NCBI GenBank assembly: GCA_002256485.1
Contig: NNSG01000006.1
Span: 1-64,000, forward strand
From: Fidelibacterota bacterium 408169
GTDB taxonomy: Bacteria; Fidelibacterota; Marinisomatia; Marinisomatales; TCS55
Reading direction: 5' to 3'
DNA: 64,000 bases
The first letter of the stretch is position 1. Every line of letters begins with the position of its first letter. A model generated the notes under the pieces. The model ran no database searches, had not been told where the DNA came from, and saw only the letters and a program-made list of their open reading frames with translations. The position numbers were made by a program, and so were the translations under genes. Below, in pieces: positions 20,209 through 41,750 of the stretch.

Positions 20209-21141
20209 ATGACTGAAGAACACACAAAATACGACCACCTTTTTACAAATATTATTCCAAATGCAATTAGTGGAATCAAAATTTTTGGTCGCAAAGATAC
20301 GTATAAAAAACCACAAAACTATGGAGCGGTAACGAATCATGAAAATAAAATATGGGAAGATCTTTTTGTAAACCTTGAACGACTTTTAGATCAATATGCC
20401 TCACAAGAATATTTACTTGGTATGCGGTCATTGCCGATTCCCCACGATCGTTTTCCGGAATTTGATGCCATTTCTCCGTTAATTGAAAATTCAACAGGAT
20501 GGTCTTTAATGCCTGTCATGGGGTTTTTAGATGAAGAATTATTTTTTGATTTAAATGCTAGGCGAAAATTCCCTGTTACCGACATCATTCGCAAATCTAC
20601 TCGATTTGAAAAAAAGTATGAAGGTATAAATATTCAAAACGAAGAAGGGTATACACCAGAGCCGGATATTTTTCACGATGTTCAGGCACACGTACCATTT
20701 TTGATGAATAAAGACTATGCCGATTTTATGCACGATATGGGTATCCTTGGCCATGAAATAATCACCGATGAAAAAGGGTTGGGCTCGGAATTAGTTTCAC
20801 ATAACTTGAAACGATTGCAAAACTTTGCTTGGTGGACGTATGAATTTGGTGTTGTGAAAAATACTGGCACCACAGATAAATTTCGCCATGAAGAAAATGA
20901 TATCGATTACGAAATATATGGTGCAGGAATTATTTCTTCTTACGATGAAACAAAAAGCATAGTAAACTGTGCAAAGGGAAAATCTAACAAATCAAGATTT
21001 ATAGAATTTGATATTGAAGAAGTTGTAATGACGCGTTTTGACTACAGCGAAATCCAAGATAGATATTATGTTGCTGAATCAATGCAGGATTTATACACCA
21101 GTTTTAATAATAATAAAGACCTTTTTTGGTTCAAAGGCTGA
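20209..21141 (+). CDS. phhA: Aromatic amino acid hydroxylase (phenylalanine 4-monooxygenase type)
   Basis: This iron- and pterin-dependent oxygenase probably converts phenylalanine to tyrosine using O2. The 310-residue bacterial-size enzyme has TGWSLMPVMGFLDEELFF, the FPVTDIIR block, and the iron triad His156 and His161 in EPDIFHDVQAHVP plus Glu212 in WWTYEFGVV (numbers counted from the ATG). The usual HD-x-x-G-HVP reads HDVQAHVP, with Gly replaced by Ala next to the second His; the ligands themselves are intact. It is followed after 13 bases by a TPR lipoprotein gene. Tyrosine or tryptophan hydroxylase activity cannot be excluded from sequence. Confidence 0.9.
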   Translation: MTEEHTKYDHLFTNIIPNAISGIKIFGRKDTYKKPQNYGAVTNHENKIWEDLFVNLERLLDQYASQEYLLGMRSLPIPHDRFPEFDAISPLIENSTGWSLMPVMGFLDEELFFDLNARRKFPVTDIIRKSTRFEKKYEGINIQNEEGYTPEPDIFHDVQAHVPFLMNKDYADFMHDMGILGHEIITDEKGLGSELVSHNLKRLQNFAWWTYEFGVVKNTGTTDKFRHEENDIDYEIYGAGIISSYDETKSIVNCAKGKSNKSRFIEFDIEEVVMTRFDYSEIQDRYYVAESMQDLYTSFNNNKDLFWFKG

Positions 21142-23307: not shown

Positions 23308-23337
23308 TTGACACTTGGTTAGAGTTGGAAGTAAACT
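23308..23337 (+). promoter_or_regulatory. Putative sigma-70-like promoter of the motor operon
   Basis: TTGACA at 23308-23313 is followed after 18 bases by TAAACT at 23332-23337, about 50 bases before the first gene of the seven-gene motor operon. The spacing and shape match the element before ssb. A GAGGTAA ribosome site lies at 23379-23385. Confidence 0.45.
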
Positions 23338-23389: not shown

Positions 23390-24562
23390 ATGAACATAAA
23401 AGCGTTGTTTAAATACACACTTATTATACTAATTATAATAGCGTATAACCCCACCCTATTTGCAAAAGATTTCAAGATACAAGGCACAGTTTTAGATGCA
23501 GAGGGTGAAAAAGTTGGTGGAACAACAATTTTGCTGCTCACATCAGATGGTGTTGAGTCTCAACGCACGGAAACATCCAAACCACGCATGGGTATGGGCG
23601 GAGGTTCATTCAAATTCAAAGATGTACTCCCGGGCGATTATATTTTGGAAATAGATGGCGGAGCAAAAGGGGTAGTGAATATGCCCATTACAGTTTCGGA
23701 TGATGACCTAGATGATCTAGAACTAGTTTTGTCAGCAAAGGCAGAAGTTAAAAAAGAAATTGTATTGGAGAGCGACGGCAAAGAGACAAGTAAAATTGTT
23801 GAAATTCCCGACGAAGCCACTGAGGCTGGCAGTGATGCTGCTTATGTAACAACAGAATTAAGTTTTGAATTAAAAAAACTTTCTGCGGAAGTAAAACATC
23901 TTAATTCCGAGCTGGAGGACTTGAAAGCTTTAAGTAAAATGTGGGTAAACCCCTTGGCTATTTATTCTAAAGAAATTATTTTACAAAACGGGAGCACCGT
24001 ATTTGGGAAGATTGTGTATCAAGACGAAGAAACGTTAAAAGTTGAAACTCTATTAGGATATTTAATTATAGAACGTAAAAATATTGTAAGGGTTATTGAT
24101 AATGTTGTGACTGAAGAAACACAGGAATATGTACCTGAACAAATTCGTGATAGCTACTCCCCTCCGCCCATGCCAAAACTGGCAGAACCCAAATATACTT
24201 CTGCTGATCCATTAAGCCGGGAAGCCGGTAAAAGATATTCTGCAAATTGTGTTCTGGTTGGAAACATTAGTGAGCGAAAAGATAATCAGGGCGCAATTAT
24301 TTTTACAGGTGAGGTAAAAAATATTGGTGGTCGTCGAGCGGATTTTGTGAAGGTTGATTTTGTATTTCGCAAAAACTGGAGCGGCGAAACGAAGACACTC
24401 ACCACATTCGTACGCGGAACATACCACACCTTCGACTCTGGCATCACCACAGATGCCACTTTGCTCCCGGGCTCGGTTGGTGCCTTTGAATTATTTGTAC
24501 CCAATGATTTTGGGTCTTTCATCGGATATTCCTATGTTATAGACTGGGAGGAATATCAATAA
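23390..24562 (+). CDS. Exported coiled-coil protein with carboxypeptidase-regulatory-like, Sm-like and FxLYD domains
   Basis: This first gene of the motor operon encodes 390 residues with a signal peptide (ALFKYTLIILIIIAYN). Next comes a beta-sandwich resembling the carboxypeptidase regulatory/SpaA-like fold (about 26-125; QGTVLDAEGEKVGGTTILL). Then follow an acidic linker, a short coiled coil (about 155-182; LSFELKKLSAEVKHLNSEL), an Sm/SH3-like strand set (about 196-235; NGSTVFGKIVYQDEETLKVE), a Pro-rich linker and a C-terminal FxLYD-like domain (about 287-390; FTGEVKNIGGRRADFVKV). No enzymatic site is visible. It is probably a periplasmic scaffold. A GAGGTAA ribosome site precedes the ATG and the stop overlaps the next start by one base. 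Confidence 0.8.
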   Translation: MNIKALFKYTLIILIIIAYNPTLFAKDFKIQGTVLDAEGEKVGGTTILLLTSDGVESQRTETSKPRMGMGGGSFKFKDVLPGDYILEIDGGAKGVVNMPITVSDDDLDDLELVLSAKAEVKKEIVLESDGKETSKIVEIPDEATEAGSDAAYVTTELSFELKKLSAEVKHLNSELEDLKALSKMWVNPLAIYSKEIILQNGSTVFGKIVYQDEETLKVETLLGYLIIERKNIVRVIDNVVTEETQEYVPEQIRDSYSPPPMPKLAEPKYTSADPLSREAGKRYSANCVLVGNISERKDNQGAIIFTGEVKNIGGRRADFVKVDFVFRKNWSGETKTLTTFVRGTYHTFDSGITTDATLLPGSVGAFELFVPNDFGSFIGYSYVIDWEEYQ

Positions 24563-25455
24563 TGGCGGCGGAATCATTTTACCGCCGAGTTTTCTTTATC
24601 TTTGGAATAACCTCATTTCTGGTTTTTCCTATAAAGGGGCAACACCACATCGCCCACCCACCGGAGGTTTTTCTCCTAGATTTAGGTATTATTATTGAAC
24701 CATCAACAGGAAATGAATCGTATAGTCGGTTGATTACAAAACCGTCAAATGAAGTAAAAATTAGGATTAAACACATTAAAAGCGGAACGGCTGACCACTT
24801 TGCCAATCAAAAACTTTTGACTGCAATTGAACGAATAAACTCACGAATAGTTAATCTGGAAACATCGTTGCAAAGTGAATTAATAGCATTGAAATCTGAA
24901 AACATTAAATTGAAAGGATTGCTTGCTTCAGCTATACCTGTTTTAGAAAAGCCTGAGAGACCAAATGTCTCTATAAGTATGGACGAACCGCAAAGCATGG
25001 ACAATCTAACCTTTGTGGAGTTGCCGGTTGTAAAAAGCATTGCTCTGGTTCAACCCGATCCGTTTATAGAAAAATTTAATGATAATATTTATATGATGGG
25101 AATGTATGCATATCAATGCGGCAACTTTGCCACAGCGCTAAACTGCTTTAACGATCTTAATCTGCAATCAGCAAAAACAGAAAAAGCTGAAAACATTCTT
25201 TATTGGACAGCAGATATATATCTACAACTCCGAGATTATGATAATGCATTAACCGTATTAGATAAACTATTGGAATATAAAAAATCGGAAATGACAGACG
25301 ATGCCCTGGTGAAAAAAGGATTGATGTATAAAGAACTGGGCAGTATAGATTTAGCAATGAATACGTTTAAAAAAGTTGTTGTGGGACATCCGGATAGTGA
25401 ATATTACCGTTTAGCATCGCTTGAGATAAAACGAGGGGAAATGACTTTCCAGTGA
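24562..25455 (+). CDS. Exported coiled-coil TPR protein (CpoB/YbgF-like layout)
   Basis: The second gene of the motor operon encodes 297 residues. A hydrophobic N-terminal segment (VFFIFGITSFLVFPI) serves as signal or anchor. A coiled coil spans about residues 80-125 (AIERINSRIVNLETSLQSE), and three TPR-like repeats span about 175-290 (MYAYQCGNFATALNCFNDL; IYLQLRDYDNALTVLDKLL; YKELGSIDLAMNTFKKVV). The order coiled coil then TPR is that of CpoB/YbgF, a periplasmic partner of the Tol proton-driven machine; the resemblance is structural, not proof of homology. It overlaps its neighbours by 1 and 4 bases, so it is translationally coupled. Confidence 0.78.
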   Translation: MAAESFYRRVFFIFGITSFLVFPIKGQHHIAHPPEVFLLDLGIIIEPSTGNESYSRLITKPSNEVKIRIKHIKSGTADHFANQKLLTAIERINSRIVNLETSLQSELIALKSENIKLKGLLASAIPVLEKPERPNVSISMDEPQSMDNLTFVELPVVKSIALVQPDPFIEKFNDNIYMMGMYAYQCGNFATALNCFNDLNLQSAKTEKAENILYWTADIYLQLRDYDNALTVLDKLLEYKKSEMTDDALVKKGLMYKELGSIDLAMNTFKKVVVGHPDSEYYRLASLEIKRGEMTFQ

Positions 25456-26870
25456 ATAAATTTATAAACATAGTATTAGTATTTTCTTTTGTATTGATAT
25501 CAATATTAAGTGGCGCATCTCGCATAGCGTATACCCGCCCGGGATTTATGATAAAAATTCCTTCATCCAGCGTGAAGAAGGCGCCGTATTTATTCCGTAC
25601 TGGATTTGGTGTTGAACTACATCGTTTTGATCCTTTTAACTCTGCTCAAGGTATATATTTTGATATGGAGCTGGGAAAAAATTTTACTTTTGGATTTTCT
25701 TCTGTGCAAACTGCCGATAGTACAGCACCAGCGCTTTTAGGTAAAACGGGTTATACTCCTCCCGTAGAATTTGGTTTTCATTTGCAGCAACGTGTATACA
25801 CTTATAATAATGTATCCCTATCACTTGGTTTACAAGATATTGTTTTTCAAAACGCAGAAAGCAGTGGAGGCGGTTTAAGTCTGGATCCAGAACAACTATC
25901 GTTTTTTGTTGTTGTTAGCAGTGAAAAAGATTTGGGTAAATATCATTTAAACACCTTTATGGGATTTGGCTCGGGTGGTTTTGCGCCGACAGACACAATT
26001 AACACTTCAGTTGTAGAGGGTTCAACATCACCAGACACAGAGACGACGACCAATGAAGGCACTAAATCAGGTGTATTTATGGGTGTCATTATGAATACGC
26101 CATATCTTAGTAAATGGGGTGGAATAGATATTGTGGGTGAATTCGACGGGACAGGCATCAATGTGGGACTCCGCATCCCCCTTACCTCGGATTATCGCCT
26201 GAACTTAGGATTCACCCACATAGAAAAATTACCGGACTGGAAATCAAGATACTGGGAAGGCCATCCGGGCGTCACATTGGGATTTGATATGGCAGTGCCT
26301 CGCGGGTTAAAAAGCGCCTCTGGTGGTTCAGGAGGGCCATCTCCTTTCCCTGGAAGCCAACTGAAATTACCAGCTACGGGACAATTTGAATCATTATCAT
26401 CATCAATGGACTCTACACTGTCTATGGCCGATTTTGCAGTACACACTGTTCGGGATTCCATGATAATGTTAAAAAATGAAATGCGTAATCTCATGGTCCA
26501 ATTGGCTTCTATAGAACAACAGTCTCAATTTTTAGAAGATTCATTACTCTCGATGAAATTGAGTCGCAATGTTGATGAAAAAAATATGAACGAAGCCATG
26601 CGTCACTTGTCAAAATCGCTACGCTATTTTTATGCGAGTGATTATCGCACCGCTTTACAGGAAGTAGAATCAGCTCTGGACTTGAATCCGAATATGGCCT
26701 TGGCTTATGCACGGCGCGGATCGATTTATTATAAACTTGGTGACATTCAACGGGCGACAATTAACTGGAATTTAGCATTGCGAATGGATCCTGAATATGA
26801 TGATGTACGCAATATTTTAAAGGCGTTACACGAAAACCGTTTGAAGTCCACTAGCATTGTAGAGGAATAA
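25452..26870 (+). CDS. Exported protein with beta-barrel-like N-domain and C-terminal TPR
   Basis: The third gene of the motor operon starts at a GTG whose last two bases belong to the preceding TGA. The 472 residues begin with a signal peptide (NIVLVFSFVLISILSGAS). A region of about 260 residues has alternating hydrophobic strands and Gly/aromatic turns (YTYNNVSLSLGLQDIVFQN; GINVGLRIPLTSDYRLNLGF) typical of outer-membrane barrels. A Gly/Ser/Pro linker, a helical segment (about 330-375) and two TPRs (SDYRTALQEVESALDLNP; YYKLGDIQRATINWNLAL) follow. The C-terminus lacks a terminal Phe, as expected if the barrel is N-terminal and the TPR part faces the periplasm. Six bases separate it from motA, so it may link the motor to the outer membrane. 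Confidence 0.75.
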   Translation: MNKFINIVLVFSFVLISILSGASRIAYTRPGFMIKIPSSSVKKAPYLFRTGFGVELHRFDPFNSAQGIYFDMELGKNFTFGFSSVQTADSTAPALLGKTGYTPPVEFGFHLQQRVYTYNNVSLSLGLQDIVFQNAESSGGGLSLDPEQLSFFVVVSSEKDLGKYHLNTFMGFGSGGFAPTDTINTSVVEGSTSPDTETTTNEGTKSGVFMGVIMNTPYLSKWGGIDIVGEFDGTGINVGLRIPLTSDYRLNLGFTHIEKLPDWKSRYWEGHPGVTLGFDMAVPRGLKSASGGSGGPSPFPGSQLKLPATGQFESLSSSMDSTLSMADFAVHTVRDSMIMLKNEMRNLMVQLASIEQQSQFLEDSLLSMKLSRNVDEKNMNEAMRHLSKSLRYFYASDYRTALQEVESALDLNPNMALAYARRGSIYYKLGDIQRATINWNLALRMDPEYDDVRNILKALHENRLKSTSIVEE

Positions 26871-26876
26871 GAAAGT

Positions 26877-27659
26877 ATGGATATTGCAACATTAATAGGT
26901 ATTATTCTTGGTTTGGGATCAATTTTTGGTGGAATATTTATGGCAGCTTCAGCTGCTAATGCAGGCATGGGAGGATTTCTGTCTCCTTCAAGTTTTGCGA
27001 TTGTTGTTGGTGGTATGATAGCTTCAGTTTCAGTCGCATTTCCATTGTCAGATGTATTAAAACTGGGTGCAGCTATGGGAGCTGTGTTTAAAGGTGGAAA
27101 GCTTAAGCTTGGCGTGGTGGTAGATGATGCCGTAGAAGCAGCAGATGTAGGAAGAAAAGGAGCAGCTGAACTTGAAAAATCAGTAGATAACATCAAAAAT
27201 CCATTTTTCAGGGACGGTGTTCAAATGGTCGTTGATGGTTATTCGCTTGGTGAATTAACAGAAATTTTAGAAACTCGAATTGAGTATAGGGAAGTACGTG
27301 AAAAAACTCAAGCAGGATTGTTTAAATCAATGGGAACAATGGCACCCGCTTGGGGAATGATAGGAACATTGATTGGTTTAGTTATTATGTTGGCTGGTTT
27401 TGGCGGAGAGGGCGGAGCTGATTCATTAGGCCCTGGGATGTCAGCGGCATTAATCACAACATTTTATGGAGCAGTTTTAGCTAATTTGTTTTTTCTGCCT
27501 ATGAGTGAAAAACTGAATACCAGAATTAGTTTTACAAGCACAATGCAAGCCATGCTTGTTGAGGCCTCGAGGTTAATTCACCAAAAAAAGCACCCTTTGA
27601 TTGTTAGGGAAAAATTAAATTCCTTTATTCCACCAAAGGAATGGAAAAAAGAAGAATAA
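26877..27659 (+). CDS. motA: MotA-family stator subunit
   Basis: This 260-residue four-helix protein forms the ion channel with MotB and pushes against a FliG-type rotor. Helix 1 (TLIGIILGLGSIFGGIFMAA) and helix 2 (FAIVVGGMIASVSVAFPL) are followed by a cytoplasmic loop with the basic/acidic pattern RKGAAELEKSVDNIKNPFFRDGVQMVVDGY, split here only by reading; its R...E spacing resembles the charged MotA residues that contact FliG. Helix 3 carries the conserved Pro (MGTMAPAWGMIGTLIGL) and helix 4 is TTFYGAVLANLFFLPM. ExbB/TolQ is excluded by the four-helix MotA layout and the MVVDG motif. It is 4 bases before motB. Confidence 0.93.
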   Translation: MDIATLIGIILGLGSIFGGIFMAASAANAGMGGFLSPSSFAIVVGGMIASVSVAFPLSDVLKLGAAMGAVFKGGKLKLGVVVDDAVEAADVGRKGAAELEKSVDNIKNPFFRDGVQMVVDGYSLGELTEILETRIEYREVREKTQAGLFKSMGTMAPAWGMIGTLIGLVIMLAGFGGEGGADSLGPGMSAALITTFYGAVLANLFFLPMSEKLNTRISFTSTMQAMLVEASRLIHQKKHPLIVREKLNSFIPPKEWKKEE

Positions 27660-27663
27660 TTAA

Positions 27664-28467
27664 ATGCCAAAATCCTCAAAAGAAAAGAAAGCATACCAAG
27701 CCGGAATTACTAAAGGAAAAACCCTTGTTGATGAGGGACTCCCCGGTTGGTTTGGAACCTTTGCAGATATGATGACATTACTTTTTGCTTTTTTTGTTTT
27801 GTTGGCTGCTATTTCGACCATTGATCCTGTAAAATTACAGGAAATGGCCGATTCCATGGGAAAATCAGTCGGTAGTAAAATAAAAAAAGAAAGCCAGGCA
27901 ATGAACCTCGCTGATATCAAAAAAGCTGCACAGAACATGGTAAATAAAATGAAAGAAGAATCAGAATCTGGTGAAGCACCTGTAGATGTAACAACCGGTC
28001 CTAAAGGAGTTACAATTGGTATTTCATCTGATATAAGTTTTACGTCTGGTTCTGCAAAAACTAAACCGCAAATTATTAATATATTGACCAAAATTGTTCC
28101 AACAATAGACAAATCCTATTTCCAGATAGCAGTAGAAGGTCACACAGATAATGAAAAACTTCCGGAAAAACTACAGGAAAAATACCCAACTAACTGGGAA
28201 TTGTCATCAGCTAGGGCATCGGCTGTTGTAAGAGAATTGATAAAATTAGGAGTAAACCCTACAAGGTTGGAAGCAGTAGGTTATGGTGAATTTGTCCCCC
28301 GGGATAAATTATCTCATGAATTAGTTACTGGAGAAATCATAAACAAATACAATAAGACTGTTCAGCAAAAAGCACGCAACAGACGCGTTGAAATAACATT
28401 CTTAGCGCCACATTATTCCAAACAAGATTCAGGTGTAGCTGGTACTGAGACAGGAAAGACAACATAG
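27664..28467 (+). CDS. motB: MotB-family stator subunit
   Basis: This 267-residue stator partner has a short cytoplasmic N-terminus and one membrane helix with the ion-binding Asp35 in GTFADMMTLLFAFFVLLAA. A plug/linker region follows (IDPVKLQEMADSMGKSVGS), then the OmpA-like peptidoglycan-binding domain at about 145-255 (VEGHTDNEKLP, LSSARASAVVRELI, RLEAVGYGEFVP, ARNRRVEITFL). All elements needed for a wall-anchored ion-driven stator are intact. Proton versus sodium use cannot be decided from the sequence. The next gene starts 31 bases downstream with a strong AAGGAG site. Confidence 0.94.
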   Translation: MPKSSKEKKAYQAGITKGKTLVDEGLPGWFGTFADMMTLLFAFFVLLAAISTIDPVKLQEMADSMGKSVGSKIKKESQAMNLADIKKAAQNMVNKMKEESESGEAPVDVTTGPKGVTIGISSDISFTSGSAKTKPQIINILTKIVPTIDKSYFQIAVEGHTDNEKLPEKLQEKYPTNWELSSARASAVVRELIKLGVNPTRLEAVGYGEFVPRDKLSHELVTGEIINKYNKTVQQKARNRRVEITFLAPHYSKQDSGVAGTETGKTT

Positions 28468-28498: not shown

Positions 28499-30031
28499 AT
28501 GAGTAAATATAACATATTTCATAAACAATTTTTATTGGCAGTATTCTGTGTAAACATAGTTTGGGGACAAGGCAGTGGTTACCTTGCACAGAAATTGATG
28601 GTAGAAAATGACTTGCGACAGCGTATCACAGATGCTTTGTCCAAAATAATTGATGACCGTAAATATGTCATTGATGTGGATGCAGATATTGAAATCAGCG
28701 GAGGAAGCGAAGAACAAATAACTATCCTGGATGAAAGTCAACAAATCAGCCAACACACAGAAGATGTATCCGCTGCCCAAGATGTGCTCGATCGATCTGT
28801 GGAAAATCAAAGTGGAGGTATTACCAGTGGATTACCAATCCCCGGTTTCGAATTTGAATCAGACGCTGGTAGATCTACACCTGTTACCAACGATGTAGAG
28901 TCACCATCAACGCTCTCAGTACCAGTCCCATCTAAAAGTGGACAAGGAAAGGTTCTTTCACGGACAGTGACCAGCAAACACCCCTCTACAGCCTACGTTA
29001 AAAAACTGGAAATAAGTATCATTCTCCAAGAAGGAGCAGCTCCTGAACTTATTGAAAATATCCGACAAGTAGTAATGGTCGCTGCTCGTTTTAATCGCGC
29101 TAGGGGTGATGCGTTAAGCATAATGACTGCTACATTTAAAGAGCGACGAGACGAAAAAACAGCCGAACAGGTTTTACTAAAAAATATTGCTGAAAAACTA
29201 GAATCGTTGGAGCAACAAAAATCAAGCGATGGTTTTGTAAACTGGAAAGAGGAATTGGATAGCTATAAAGCACAAGAAGAAGAAAGACGTGCGCAAGATA
29301 AAATGTATTTTCAACAACAGTTAACCAGTTTGGAATCTGCAGCTAGAGACAGAGCGTACCAGACAGAAAAAAGAGATATTTTGCGCCGTGATTCACTAAA
29401 ACTTCAAGCCCTGAATAATGAAATTTCCAGCCTGAAATCCATGATATCATCTAATGAAATTTCTGGTGATGAAGTTGATCAAGCCCAAAGTGCTATGGGT
29501 GAAAAAATGAGTGAAAAAGAAAAATTGGACGCTCAAATAGCGGAAAAAATGGCAATGCTGGACGCAGTACAATCAGACTTAGATCGTATGAATGGTGGCA
29601 GATCATCCACTATGATGATTGTATTTGTTTCTTTATTGGGCGCATTGGTTATTGTGCTCGTTGTCGTATTGGTCATTATGATTATGGGAAATAGGCAGAA
29701 ACAACAACTTCCACCGCCTTGGATGTATCCTCCAAGACCAAGGAAAAAAAAAAGTGAAAATAACACAGTGACAACTCCTCAGCCTCCAGTTCCACCACAA
29801 ACAGTTAATCCGATAGAAGATACTGGTGTTTTACAGAGTGAGATTTCAGACATGCGTCAAGCAGTTGTTTCCATGAGCGTGAGCCAACCGAATACAGCAA
29901 CCCGAATTGTAAAAGAATGGATGGAAGATGATGCCCCACCGCCAGAACCAGAACCCGTTGTTGTAGCAGCTCCCGCAGAACAAGAAGACGAGGATGGCGG
30001 TAAAAAGAAAAAAAAGAAGAAGAAAAAATAA
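28499..30031 (+). CDS. Reduced FliF-like ring protein with coiled coil and FliG-binding tail
   Basis: The ATG at 28499 follows AAGGAG by 4 bases and is preferred to an upstream in-frame ATG. The 510-residue product has a signal peptide (FLLAVFCVNIVWG). Residues about 30-213 resemble the FliF ring-building domain RBM3 (LRQRITDALSKIIDDRKYV; VKKLEISIILQEG; ARFNRARGDALSIMTATF, compare FliF's RGD-S/T-V-x-V). A charged coiled coil (about 220-365) and one membrane helix (about 370-395; MMIVFVSLLGALVIVL) follow. The cytosolic tail contains QPNTATRIVKEWMED, which resembles the FliF C-terminal FliG-binding helix (NPxxVAxVIRxWL pattern). RBM1, RBM2 and the N-terminal membrane helix of FliF are absent. 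The protein ends in nine Lys residues. FliF homology is inferred from pattern and neighbours. Confidence 0.78.
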   Translation: MSKYNIFHKQFLLAVFCVNIVWGQGSGYLAQKLMVENDLRQRITDALSKIIDDRKYVIDVDADIEISGGSEEQITILDESQQISQHTEDVSAAQDVLDRSVENQSGGITSGLPIPGFEFESDAGRSTPVTNDVESPSTLSVPVPSKSGQGKVLSRTVTSKHPSTAYVKKLEISIILQEGAAPELIENIRQVVMVAARFNRARGDALSIMTATFKERRDEKTAEQVLLKNIAEKLESLEQQKSSDGFVNWKEELDSYKAQEEERRAQDKMYFQQQLTSLESAARDRAYQTEKRDILRRDSLKLQALNNEISSLKSMISSNEISGDEVDQAQSAMGEKMSEKEKLDAQIAEKMAMLDAVQSDLDRMNGGRSSTMMIVFVSLLGALVIVLVVVLVIMIMGNRQKQQLPPPWMYPPRPRKKKSENNTVTTPQPPVPPQTVNPIEDTGVLQSEISDMRQAVVSMSVSQPNTATRIVKEWMEDDAPPPEPEPVVVAAPAEQEDEDGGKKKKKKKKK

Positions 30032-30040
30032 GGCAAAGCC

Positions 30041-30973
30041 ATGATTACAGATATTAACAGACTTTCAGGCCTTCAAAAGGCAGCAATACTGTTCTCTGTT
30101 TTAGGAGAAGGCCTTGCGCTGACACTGGTAAAAGAATTGTCTAAAACAGATATACGCAAAGTAAGAGCCTCTATGCGCGAGTTAGATAATGTGTCTTTTG
30201 CCGTTAAGAAAAGAGTGATGGAAGAATTTTACTTCAGTTTTGTAAGTGAAAAATTCCACGAGGAAGAATCAGATGAACCTAAAAAACCTTTTAGTTTTTT
30301 AGAGGAAATAACAGATGAACAACTTATAGCTCTGGTTAAACCGGAAGCTGATTCAGTAGCAGCAATTACTTTGGCTCAAATATCGGGTGAACGGCGCAAT
30401 AATATAATGAACCGCTTATCCTCTGAATCAAAAGGCAACATCATTATGGAAATGGGTAATTTGAATGAAATCCCCTTGGAAGCAATTGTTAATGTGGCAA
30501 ACGATCTCCATAAGAAATCAAAATTTTTACCCAAAACAATTGCCTTCTCCCGTGGCGGAGGCAAAGATGTTGCAGAAATTTTAGGTGGTTTAAGTTCCGA
30601 AGAAGAAGCTCAATTTCTCGAAAATATTTCCAGGGAAAATCCAGATCTTGCTGCTGAAGTAAAAAAATATCACTTAACATGGGATGTTTTATTTGAAATT
30701 TTGCCGGACAATACAATACGTGATTTGATGAATTCTGTAGAGTTAGACACTATCGCCCTGGCCCTGAAGGGAATGACAGAAGACATTGTAAACAGAGTGA
30801 TTGAAAACTTACCAAAGAAGAAACAAGCTATGTATGAACCGGTGGAAGGTGCTGTTGCAAAGAGAGAAGTGGATGGTGCTCGTAAAGACATTGTTGCTGC
30901 TGCAAGACAATTGGAAAAAGATGGAGCCTTCAATTTGGCAGACTTGGTTGGTGGTGGAGAAATGGTAGAATAA
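30041..30973 (+). CDS. FliG-like rotor (switch) protein
   Basis: FliG is the rotor component that the stator acts on. The 310 residues keep all three FliG domains. The N-domain has LSGLQKAAILFSVLGEGLALTLVKEL. The middle domain starts FLEEITDEQLIALVKPEADS, where FliG normally has the EHPQ motif. The Gly-rich hinge GGGKDVAEILGGL (about 170-180) is kept, and the C-domain has the torque helix LPDNTIRDLMNSVELDTIALALKG (about 224-244), KGM.ED and a C-terminal RKDIVAAARQLEKDGAF helix. The length is slightly under the usual 330-345. It ends the operon, 30 bases before a terminator, and follows the FliF-like gene by 9 bases. No FliM or FliN gene is present nearby. Confidence 0.88.
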   Translation: MITDINRLSGLQKAAILFSVLGEGLALTLVKELSKTDIRKVRASMRELDNVSFAVKKRVMEEFYFSFVSEKFHEEESDEPKKPFSFLEEITDEQLIALVKPEADSVAAITLAQISGERRNNIMNRLSSESKGNIIMEMGNLNEIPLEAIVNVANDLHKKSKFLPKTIAFSRGGGKDVAEILGGLSSEEEAQFLENISRENPDLAAEVKKYHLTWDVLFEILPDNTIRDLMNSVELDTIALALKGMTEDIVNRVIENLPKKKQAMYEPVEGAVAKREVDGARKDIVAAARQLEKDGAFNLADLVGGGEMVE

Positions 30974-31002: not shown

Positions 31003-31036
31003 AAACAGCCTTCGCAAATTGCGAGGGCTGTTTTAT
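31003..31036 (+). terminator. Rho-independent terminator ending the motor operon
   Basis: A 15-bp stem (AAACAGCCTTCGCAA / TTGCGAGGGCTGTTT, one G-T pair) with a very short loop and trailing T run lies 30 bases after the FliG-like stop. It marks the 3' end of the motor transcription unit. Confidence 0.88.
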
Positions 31037-39686: not shown

Positions 39687-40304
39687 TTATTTCAGTCTAA
39701 AATTCACCGGAATGGAAATCCAAACACCCACAGCTCTTTCCCTCTGTTTAGCGGGTCTAAAGCGCGTTTTGCGAATTGCAGCTATGGCTGCTTCGTCCAG
39801 TCCGGTATTTGGTATTCCTTTTAATATGGACGTTTCTTTTACTCGCCCTTTTTTATCAACAAAAACTTGTACAATAATAGTTCCTTCAATTCCTGCTTCC
39901 TGGGCAATTTCTGGATATTTTGGACGAATGGGCGTAAGGGGTTTAGGCGGATCATCATAGGGTATAAATTTTACACGAGGTCCTTCAGGGGGAGGTGGAG
40001 GAGCATCCCAAGCCTCAAAGCTTTCCAAATTCGTTTCTTCAATTGTTAAGTCATCTGCTAAATCTTCATCTTCTGATTCAATAGGTACGGATGGACGAGC
40101 AGGCGGTGGTGGTAAATCTATTTGTTGGGTAAGAGGAATATCAATTTGTTCAATAATGATTTGATCAGCATCTTCCAATACAACAACTTCAAAACTTCGG
40201 GGTATAAATAAAAATCCAAATGTAATAAGTAAAATTCCAACTAAACCGGCTATACGTACTATAACAGGATAATTGAATTTTAAGATAGGGGAATATTTGT
40301 CCAT
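39687..40304 (-). CDS. tonB: TonB-family energy transducer
   Basis: This 205-residue protein couples the inner-membrane proton motor to outer-membrane receptors. It has one N-terminal membrane helix (VIVRIAGLVGILLITFGFLF), a Pro-rich and acidic periplasmic spacer (LPPPPARPSVP, PPPPPEGPR), and a TonB C-terminal domain (YPEIAQEAGIEGTIIVQVFV, GLDEAAIAAIRKTRFRPAK). It is the last gene of an exbB-exbD-exbD-tonB operon. No TonB-dependent receptor lies in the window. Confidence 0.93.
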   Translation of the reverse strand: MDKYSPILKFNYPVIVRIAGLVGILLITFGFLFIPRSFEVVVLEDADQIIIEQIDIPLTQQIDLPPPPARPSVPIESEDEDLADDLTIEETNLESFEAWDAPPPPPEGPRVKFIPYDDPPKPLTPIRPKYPEIAQEAGIEGTIIVQVFVDKKGRVKETSILKGIPNTGLDEAAIAAIRKTRFRPAKQRERAVGVWISIPVNFRLK

Positions 40305-40308
40305 GGGA

Positions 40309-40719
40309 TTATTCTACTGCTGTTTTAGTCGAATAATTCAATTTCAGGGCATCAGCTTTTCTAAGTTCATTATGAATTTCTGATATGAGTCCCATTTTTG
40401 CAGATTTATCTGCCTTCAATGAAACGGTCAATAAAGGATCTGCAGCGCGTACTTCATACATAATGTGGCGAACATTGTCAACGCTGTGTAGTTTATCCTG
40501 AATCGAGACCATTCCTTCTTTTGAAACCCAAATATGAGAGGTGTGTCGCTTTGATTTTAGTTTTTCAATCCGTTTTGCCTTTGGGAGTTCAATAGGAAGG
40601 CCGGAATATTCCCTCAGGACAGTTGTAACCATGAAAAAAATCAACAGCATGAAAATAATATCCGGCATGGATGCAGTTGGTATATCGCTTGATATTTGAG
40701 TTTTACGCTTGAGTTTCAT
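40309..40719 (-). CDS. exbD: ExbD/TolR-family protein (second copy)
   Basis: This 136-residue single-pass protein has the family entry IPTASMPDIIFMLLIFFMVTT, where the Asp is the expected proton-carrying residue, followed by a periplasmic domain. Here the residue before the Asp is Pro, where the sister copy has Ala. It differs clearly from the other ExbD (for example a LREYSGLPIELPKAKRIEKL segment), so the two are not recent duplicates. It overlaps that gene by one base and is 4 bases before tonB. Confidence 0.9.
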   Translation of the reverse strand: MKLKRKTQISSDIPTASMPDIIFMLLIFFMVTTVLREYSGLPIELPKAKRIEKLKSKRHTSHIWVSKEGMVSIQDKLHSVDNVRHIMYEVRAADPLLTVSLKADKSAKMGLISEIHNELRKADALKLNYSTKTAVE

Positions 40720-41114
40720 TAATCACTCTCAGCAATGGAAATACGTTTAGCATTCGCCATTTTAAGCTGGTCAATAACGTTCACGTAATCACTATATTTT
40801 GTTTTTTCATGTGCCTTAACAGAAATGATCAACTTGTTATTTTCAGCAATCCTGCGACGAATTTCTTTGTTGAGGTCTCTTGTTTTTACAGGTTCCCCAC
40901 CCAGTAGAACATCTCCCCTGGAATTAATCAGACAATTTAGAATATTATCCTTTTTAATTTCTATTTCTTCTCCTTCAGCAGGTAAAACTATTCCCAACCC
41001 TTTGTCCATATCAATTGTAGTGGTAACCAGAAAAAAGATAAGAAGCAAAAAGGCAATATCTGCCATTGAAGCTGTAGGGATTTCTCCGCGTTTAAAGCGG
41101 CGTTTTTTCTTCAT
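40719..41114 (-). CDS. exbD: ExbD/TolR-family protein (first copy)
   Basis: This 131-residue protein has a basic N-terminus (KKKRRFKRGE), then IPTASMADIAFLLLIFFLVTT with the membrane Asp, and a periplasmic domain ending YVNVIDQLKMANAKRISIAE. It forms a proton channel with the upstream ExbB. Two distinct ExbD proteins per ExbB/TonB set recur in FCB bacteria and could form a mixed dimer in the channel; that is inference. Confidence 0.92.
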   Translation of the reverse strand: MKKKRRFKRGEIPTASMADIAFLLLIFFLVTTTIDMDKGLGIVLPAEGEEIEIKKDNILNCLINSRGDVLLGGEPVKTRDLNKEIRRRIAENNKLIISVKAHEKTKYSDYVNVIDQLKMANAKRISIAESD

Positions 41115-41132
41115 CAGAACAGTGTATTATTT

Positions 41133-41750
41133 CTATTTCTTTGATTCCATCTCATAGAGATGGTCGACAAGTTGTATGGAATGTTCTTCCATGTCCAACA
41201 CCAGCTTATCAATTCGTGATACAAAAACATTCTGGAAAATTTGAATAATCATAGCCACGATCAAACCAAAGGCTGTTGTTAACAGTGCTTGAGAAATACC
41301 CCCGGCTACAACTGCCGGTGATATATCATCTGCTGCAGCAATGGCATCAAATGCATTTACCATACCCGCAACTGTACCGGTAAACCCAAGCATTGGAGCA
41401 ATGGTAATGACTGCATTTAACCAAATCATATTTTTTTCCAGAAAAGACATTTCAAGTGATCCTGCATTTTGGATTGCTTTTTCTACTTCTGCTATGCCCC
41501 GATGCATTCTGGAAAGTCCAGCATGAAAAATTTCAGCAACAGGGCCGTTTGTCTTTTCACACAATTCAATTGTTGATTCTATTCCTTCGCTATCTAACGA
41601 ACTGTGTACGTCATTGTAAAACTTTTCTGCGTTTATTGATGACATAATTAGTGAATAAAATCGTTCACCAACAAATGCAAGGCCAAAAACAAGTGATATT
41701 AATATGGGCCACATAAATGGTCCGCCATTTACGAAATATTCGACTAGCAT
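41133..41750 (-). CDS. exbB: ExbB/TolQ-family proton channel protein
   Basis: This 205-residue three-helix protein has a start-anchored helix (GGPFMWPILISLVFGLAFV), a cytoplasmic loop, and the two conserved helices ITIAPMLGFTGTVAGMVNAF and GGISQALLTTAFGLIVAMI. It forms the pentameric channel driving TonB and is the first gene of the minus-strand TonB operon. The MotA family at 26.9 kb is a distant relative. Confidence 0.93.
   Translation of the reverse strand: MLVEYFVNGGPFMWPILISLVFGLAFVGERFYSLIMSSINAEKFYNDVHSSLDSEGIESTIELCEKTNGPVAEIFHAGLSRMHRGIAEVEKAIQNAGSLEMSFLEKNMIWLNAVITIAPMLGFTGTVAGMVNAFDAIAAADDISPAVVAGGISQALLTTAFGLIVAMIIQIFQNVFVSRIDKLVLDMEEHSIQLVDHLYEMESKK

Follow-up and report, generated by a model that had tools for sequence, protein, structure and literature searches.

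The window, by which we mean the whole 64,000-nucleotide stretch of DNA that was analyzed, corresponds to contig 45 of a 2.47-Mb source genome that is 95% complete. Its plus strand carries a set of seven genes that overlap or lie 4 to 31 bases apart, in the order CPdreg, TPRb, OMP-TPR, MotA, MotB, FliF′, and FliG′. CPdreg (23390..24562) comprises a signal peptide, a carboxypeptidase-regulatory-like (Ig-type) domain, a coil, and a C-terminal FxLYD-like region. It is followed by TPRb (24562..25455), an exported coil and TPR protein that is closest to YbgF/CpoB (TIGR02795, E 2e-12, below the cut-off), and by OMP-TPR (25452..26870), which is exported and has a C-terminal TPR region. The beta-rich, strand-like sequence of the N-terminal part of OMP-TPR, for which Pfam returned no match, suggests a barrel-like structure. 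All three proteins have signal-peptide-like starts, and no known adhesin was found among the operon genes. Next come a MotA/PomA-type stator subunit (26877..27659) and a MotB/PomB-type subunit (27664..28467), the latter with a plug and an OmpA peptidoglycan-binding domain by Pfam. The sixth gene encodes FliF′, a reduced FliF of 510 amino acids (28499..30031; ATG at 28499, stop at 30029-30031), and the seventh encodes FliG′, a protein of 310 amino acids (30041..30973).

A terminator-like hairpin of 14 pairs (31003..31033, plus strand) stands directly 3′ of FliG′, the last gene, and a promoter-like site (23308-23337) stands before CPdreg, the first; the number of such sites is not above chance. 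Elsewhere in the window, a TonB-like gene, two ExbD-like genes, and an ExbB/MotA-family gene lie in a row on the minus strand (39687-41750), forming a second ion-channel energizer near the operon. At 20209-21141 there is an aromatic amino acid hydroxylase gene (phenylalanine 4-monooxygenase-like, E 5e-53), which is found near the operon in many relatives too.

The gene order, on one strand, is conserved across the phylum, as read in loci L001 to L026 and L048 to L092 as far as the contigs reach, with TPRb usually present in one or two copies. There are exceptions: TPRb was not recognized in L014, L015, L081, and L087 among the loci read, OMP-TPR is split in L070, and in L073 an opposite-strand ORF was picked over MotA/MotB, where MotB is nevertheless present by Pfam.

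Stator and rotor proteins

The residues on which a flagellar stator depends are conserved in this set. The equivalent of MotB Asp32 is kept in 57 of 57 sequences, and the MotA equivalents of E98, P173, P222, and T209, together with the torque-loop Arg, are invariant (55/55), including the torque-loop charges and channel prolines of the window protein. By sequence, MotA and MotB are recognizable as a stator of the flagellar type that carries a peptidoglycan-binding domain.

FliG′ is a FliG both by sequence and by fold matches to FliG structures, and FliG_N, FliG_M, and FliG_C all score above their Pfam cut-offs. Its domain content (D1, middle, and C-terminal torque domain) indicates that it keeps the torque-helix domain and the predicted FliF-binding domain. 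Within the torque region, K264 is kept in 61/61 proteins and position 281 is always K or R; D288/D289 are kept in only 13 of the 61, and R297 is replaced, with K or R at the following position in all. In the EHPQ sequence of FliG, which we take to be the FliM-binding motif, E is kept in FliG′ (61/61), H and Q are lost, and roughly half of the proteins have P. A deletion has removed the counterpart of D2 (Salmonella residues 73-99). In the Salmonella ring, each next D1 is completed by an intercalating D2 (PMC11087270), and a FliG′ ring without D2 must therefore close differently from that of Salmonella.

FliF′: ring domain, linker, and tail

The first-pass annotation had read FliF′ as a FliF cut down to one ring-building domain with a single C-terminal membrane helix, and the follow-up supports both points. 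First, the Pfam family YscJ_FliF_C (PF08345) matches FliF′ residues 47-213 over the whole profile (1-147 of 147), scoring 28.3 bits where the cut-off is 23.8, and the same family is matched by 23 of 24 FliF′ orthologues. In the AlphaFold model, RBM3 with its collar insertion (residues 34-213; 28598..29137) is predicted as a helix at 34-50, strands at 56-67/71-76 and 152-158/164-177, a helix at 182-195, and a strand at 205-211, which is the alpha-beta-beta-alpha-beta order of the RBM fold interrupted by a collar. The ring domain has a pLDDT of ~73 to 90 within a model whose overall pLDDT is 64 and whose pTM is low (0.27). In the fold comparison that had been suggested, each of the 18 PDB structures that Foldseek matched at E<1e-3 is a FliF MS ring (18/18), with 8z5v as the best (E 2e-6, TM 0.61 by target) and the first match beyond the FliF set at E=0.098. 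A whole-protein profile alignment between FliF′ and flagellar FliF (hhalign) matched the RBM3 stretch at E 2.4e-6, and the FliF′ profile searched against PDB sequences gave a weak match to FliF alone (E 0.011).

Second, FliF′ has just one strong membrane helix, the C-terminal one at residues 371-397 (29609..29689). Only ~33 residues precede RBM3, and these include a hydrophobic stretch followed by a conserved GQ, which reads as a signal peptide (28499..28570) that probably replaces membrane helix 1. RBM1/RBM2 (PF01514) had no match anywhere in the source genome. Taken together, the sequence features of FliF′ show that it has kept the RBM3/collar that forms rings, a single membrane helix, and a tail of the FliG-binding type. 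Within the collar insertion, the FliF′ proteins of relatives share a conserved PIPGF-like motif (window 28835-28849); the collar of E. coli FliF has YPGGVPG, and the three Marinimicrobia flagellar FliF proteins checked have no such motif.

Between RBM3 and the membrane helix lies a highly charged, helical linker (residues 219-366; 29153..29596) whose length varies by clade. AlphaFold places helices at 219-243, 249-317, and 323-366, mostly with pLDDT ~80 to 90 except at the breaks. Because no heptad or hydropathy periodicity rose above shuffles, either in the single sequence or in the family average, the linker is unproven as a coiled coil. The spacing between RBM3 and the membrane helix is stepped by clade, at ~44, 119-131, 144-166, 171-179, and 193-210 residues, and is not correlated with MotB, TPRb, OMP-TPR, CPdreg, or FliG′ length. 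In one family (f18; loci L053 and L062) the linker is ~44 residues, a natural version of the protein without the long linker, and the stretch of E. coli FliF that matches it is ~20 residues. The proposal that a ~145-residue coiled coil raises the ring toward the wall finds no support here: the segment is predicted to be helical, is without detectable heptads, spans 44 to 210 residues, and in one family has almost disappeared. The FliF′ family can thus do without a long linker, and a role as a spacer is possible.

The cytoplasmic tail (two helices, residues 442-476; 29822..29926) contains VVSMSVxQPxTATRIVKEWM. FliF′ proteins end in RQSVVSMSVGQPxTATxIVKxWL followed by a variable acidic or lysine-rich stretch, and canonical flagellar FliF proteins of the same phylum end in MTxEVxxYAKENPEDAAKLIRSWL. 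In the whole-protein alignment, the tail is matched at E 0.005, with RBM3 followed by the tail in the order found in flagellar FliF. When the cytoplasmic parts were aligned alone (hhalign), FliF′ and flagellar FliF scored 34.5 (E 1.5e-5), compared with a mean of 9.5 and a maximum of 16.9 in 150 column shuffles and 18.5 for the reversed profile. This margin bears out the annotated FliG-binding-type tail, which lies on the cytoplasmic side and is encoded next to a FliG-like gene; the FliF′ tail is, by profile comparison, homologous to flagellar FliF tails, and FliG binding is predicted.

Since FliF′ and FliG′ are in frame and 9 bases apart, reading through the stop yields a single-chain tail-FliG′ fusion that can be modeled with AlphaFold. 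In this fusion, the tail helices have pLDDT values of 69 to 80 as opposed to 54 to 64 in FliF′ alone, a rise that comes from runs on different alignments and is no contact map, and the flexible stretch between the tail and FliG′ falls below 40. The rise is compatible with, and only suggestive of, docking of the tail onto FliG′. In most close relatives, FliG′ also starts exactly 9 bases past the FliF′ stop in the same frame, a spacing that possibly reflects translational coupling. The poly-Lys tract of FliF′ is encoded by A/G-rich DNA (window 30002-30040). The Lys-9 end (30002..30028), singled out earlier as unusual, is present in the window protein, and a Lys tract occurs in only part of the phylum.

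Distribution and history in Marinimicrobia

We surveyed 149 Marinimicrobia (SAR406) genomes, using OMP-TPR as the marker of the set. OMP-TPR is strongly present in 104/149, and only 26 of those 104 have FlhA. PF08345 was found in 102/149 genomes, where strong matches represent flagellar FliF and a weaker class represents FliF′; FlhA is above the cut-off in 33 genomes and FliM/FliN in 31. FliF′ occurs in 90 genomes, of which 89 also have OMP-TPR (Fisher p 1e-23), and the set and FlhA occur together in 26 genomes, the set only in 78, FlhA only in 7, and neither in 38 (p=0.28), both p-values being descriptive because genomes are not independent samples and the presence lists were compiled by hand. 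Across the 149 genomes, the presence of the set is unrelated to that of FlhA. Seven loci were read from genomes that have the marker without a Pfam match for FliF′; in 6 of them FliF′ lies between MotB and FliG′, and the seventh ends at a contig edge. MotB_plug is missing mainly in genomes that lack the set as well as FlhA. FlhA and FliM/FliN were not found in the source genome.

A search of contigs for FliG′, which reaches close relatives only, returned only Marinimicrobia/Neomarinimicrobiota matches, including "bacterium TMED144." A maximum-likelihood tree built from 58 FliG proteins splits FliG′ from flagellar FliG with 100/100 support. Groups within FliG′ correspond to taxonomic families, with one exception, L050, which is listed in the family of the window and sits with family f8. 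Because a single FliG′ clade follows taxonomy, the gene appears to be old and vertically inherited rather than a flagellar remnant; its phylogeny fits descent from before the radiation of the phylum, followed by losses in some lineages, those with small genomes among them. That the set is under selection is indicated by its open frames, its conserved key residues, and the fixed order of its genes, and its kit of stator, rotor, and ring is complete and separate from the flagellum. Searches of open-licence papers on Marinimicrobia and FliG, flagella, gliding, or type IX secretion turned up no description of the seven-gene set.

Proposed function and comparison with known machines

We propose, with a probability of roughly 70%, that the seven genes together specify a non-flagellar rotary motor, dedicated and driven by ions, which is coupled to the outer envelope. 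Ion flow would turn a MotA pentamer, which would push a ring of FliG′, and FliG′ would turn FliF′ via the FliF′ tail. The RBM3 ring, situated in the periplasm at the end of the clade-specific helical linker, would then pass on its rotation, or a force, to the operon's TPR and barrel-like proteins at the outer envelope. Such a motor would do without FliM/FliN, the export apparatus, rod, hook, and filament. Counting against a motor are the partly changed torque-helix charges of FliG′ (D288/D289 and R297), its loss of D2, and the low AlphaFold pTM values (0.27 and 0.35). We lean slightly toward the broader claim that this is a new class of machine, a FliG-driven, MotAB-powered non-flagellar ring that is ancestral to Marinimicrobia and carries rotation through the periplasm to an assembly in the outer membrane. 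The leading guess for its output, doubtful though not far-fetched, is that it moves outer-membrane or surface structures and so drives surface (gliding-like) motility.

The alternative that survives best, albeit as an unlikely one, is envelope maintenance resembling that of Tol-Pal/CpoB, in which ion flow pulls or organizes the outer membrane and peptidoglycan at division and FliF′/FliG′ serve as a force coupler rather than as a rotor. The kinship of TPRb with YbgF/CpoB and the peptidoglycan-binding OmpA domain of MotB would suit such a role, as would the failure to find TolB_N in the source genome (borderline matches only, in 14/61 relatives). Nevertheless, many relatives lack the set and TolB alike, MotP/PomA profiles and torque-loop charges mark the stator as a flagellar torque type, and FliG′ has kept its torque domain.

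It is improbable that the set powers type IX secretion in place of the GldL/GldM motor. In favor of it, SprA is present in 144/149 genomes with GldM in 0 and GldL in 0 above the cut-off, in searches for GldM/GldL that had no positive control. However, SprA and dozens of sorting-domain proteins persist where the set is missing (42 to 74 such proteins in several genomes). Because type IX genes are near-universal and the cargo is as rich in several genomes without the set, the set is not a general type IX motor, and this candidate is weakened accordingly. SprA, the type IX secretion translocon, is encoded in the source genome at C12:66787-67986, and the survey counted up to 128 sorting-domain proteins per Marinimicrobia genome.

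RBM3 alone can form rings and is homologous to SpoIIIAG (PMC8786727), and so the operon might encode a static envelope-spanning scaffold or secretion channel built on an RBM3 pore ring, as in SpoIIIAG, with the stator only gating it. We consider this very improbable; it leaves the FliG torque-helix charges beside a torque-type MotA unexplained, and the operon contains no SpoIIIAH or secretin-like partner. A decaying flagellar remnant, which the absence of flagellar export genes from most carriers might suggest, is rejected on the strength of the 26 genomes that carry a flagellum (FlhA) and the set together and of the separate FliG′ clade.

FliG and FliF are generally regarded as flagellar parts. 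If the rotary motor proposed here is real, the core of the flagellar motor can serve another machine, in an abundant uncultured ocean phylum, which has a bearing on the way flagella were put together during evolution. A fliG gene in a metagenome survey would then be no proof of swimming; one such survey used fliG among three marker genes (PMC10359470). The conserved residues of the set are defined targets for testing rotation. The larger picture, absent from the first-pass annotation, is that FliF′ belongs to a phylum-wide operon, one that occurs independently of flagella.

Among the closest known systems, Tol-Pal with CpoB/YbgF shares with the set an ion-channel pair and an exported TPR protein; however, it has no rotor and uses another channel family, and TolA/TolB/Pal are absent from the FliF′ operon. 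The Agl-Glt gliding machine of Myxococcus (see PMC9120999) resembles the set in having a stator-like ion channel, periplasmic and outer-membrane partners, and no flagellum, and differs in its TolQR-type stator and lack of a FliF/FliG rotor. The GldLM gliding/type IX secretion motor of Bacteroidota is also an ion-driven rotary motor acting on outer-membrane partners, yet it has no FliF or FliG, and GldL/GldM were not found in Marinimicrobia (searches without a positive control). The sporulation channel protein SpoIIIAG also forms a ring from an RBM3-like domain and has no RBM1/2 (see PMC8786727); it lacks a FliG-binding tail, a FliG, and a stator, and the significant Foldseek matches of FliF′ are to FliF only. 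Every part of the motor is homologous to a flagellar part, and the set shares with the flagellar FliF-FliG-MotAB core the RBM3/collar, a FliG-binding-type tail, the FliG torque domain, and MotA/MotB with the same key residues. In contrast to that core, FliF′ lacks RBM1, RBM2, and membrane helix 1, FliG′ has no D2 or FliM motif, most carriers have no FliM/FliN or export gate, and the operon adds TPR and barrel-like partners for the outer envelope.
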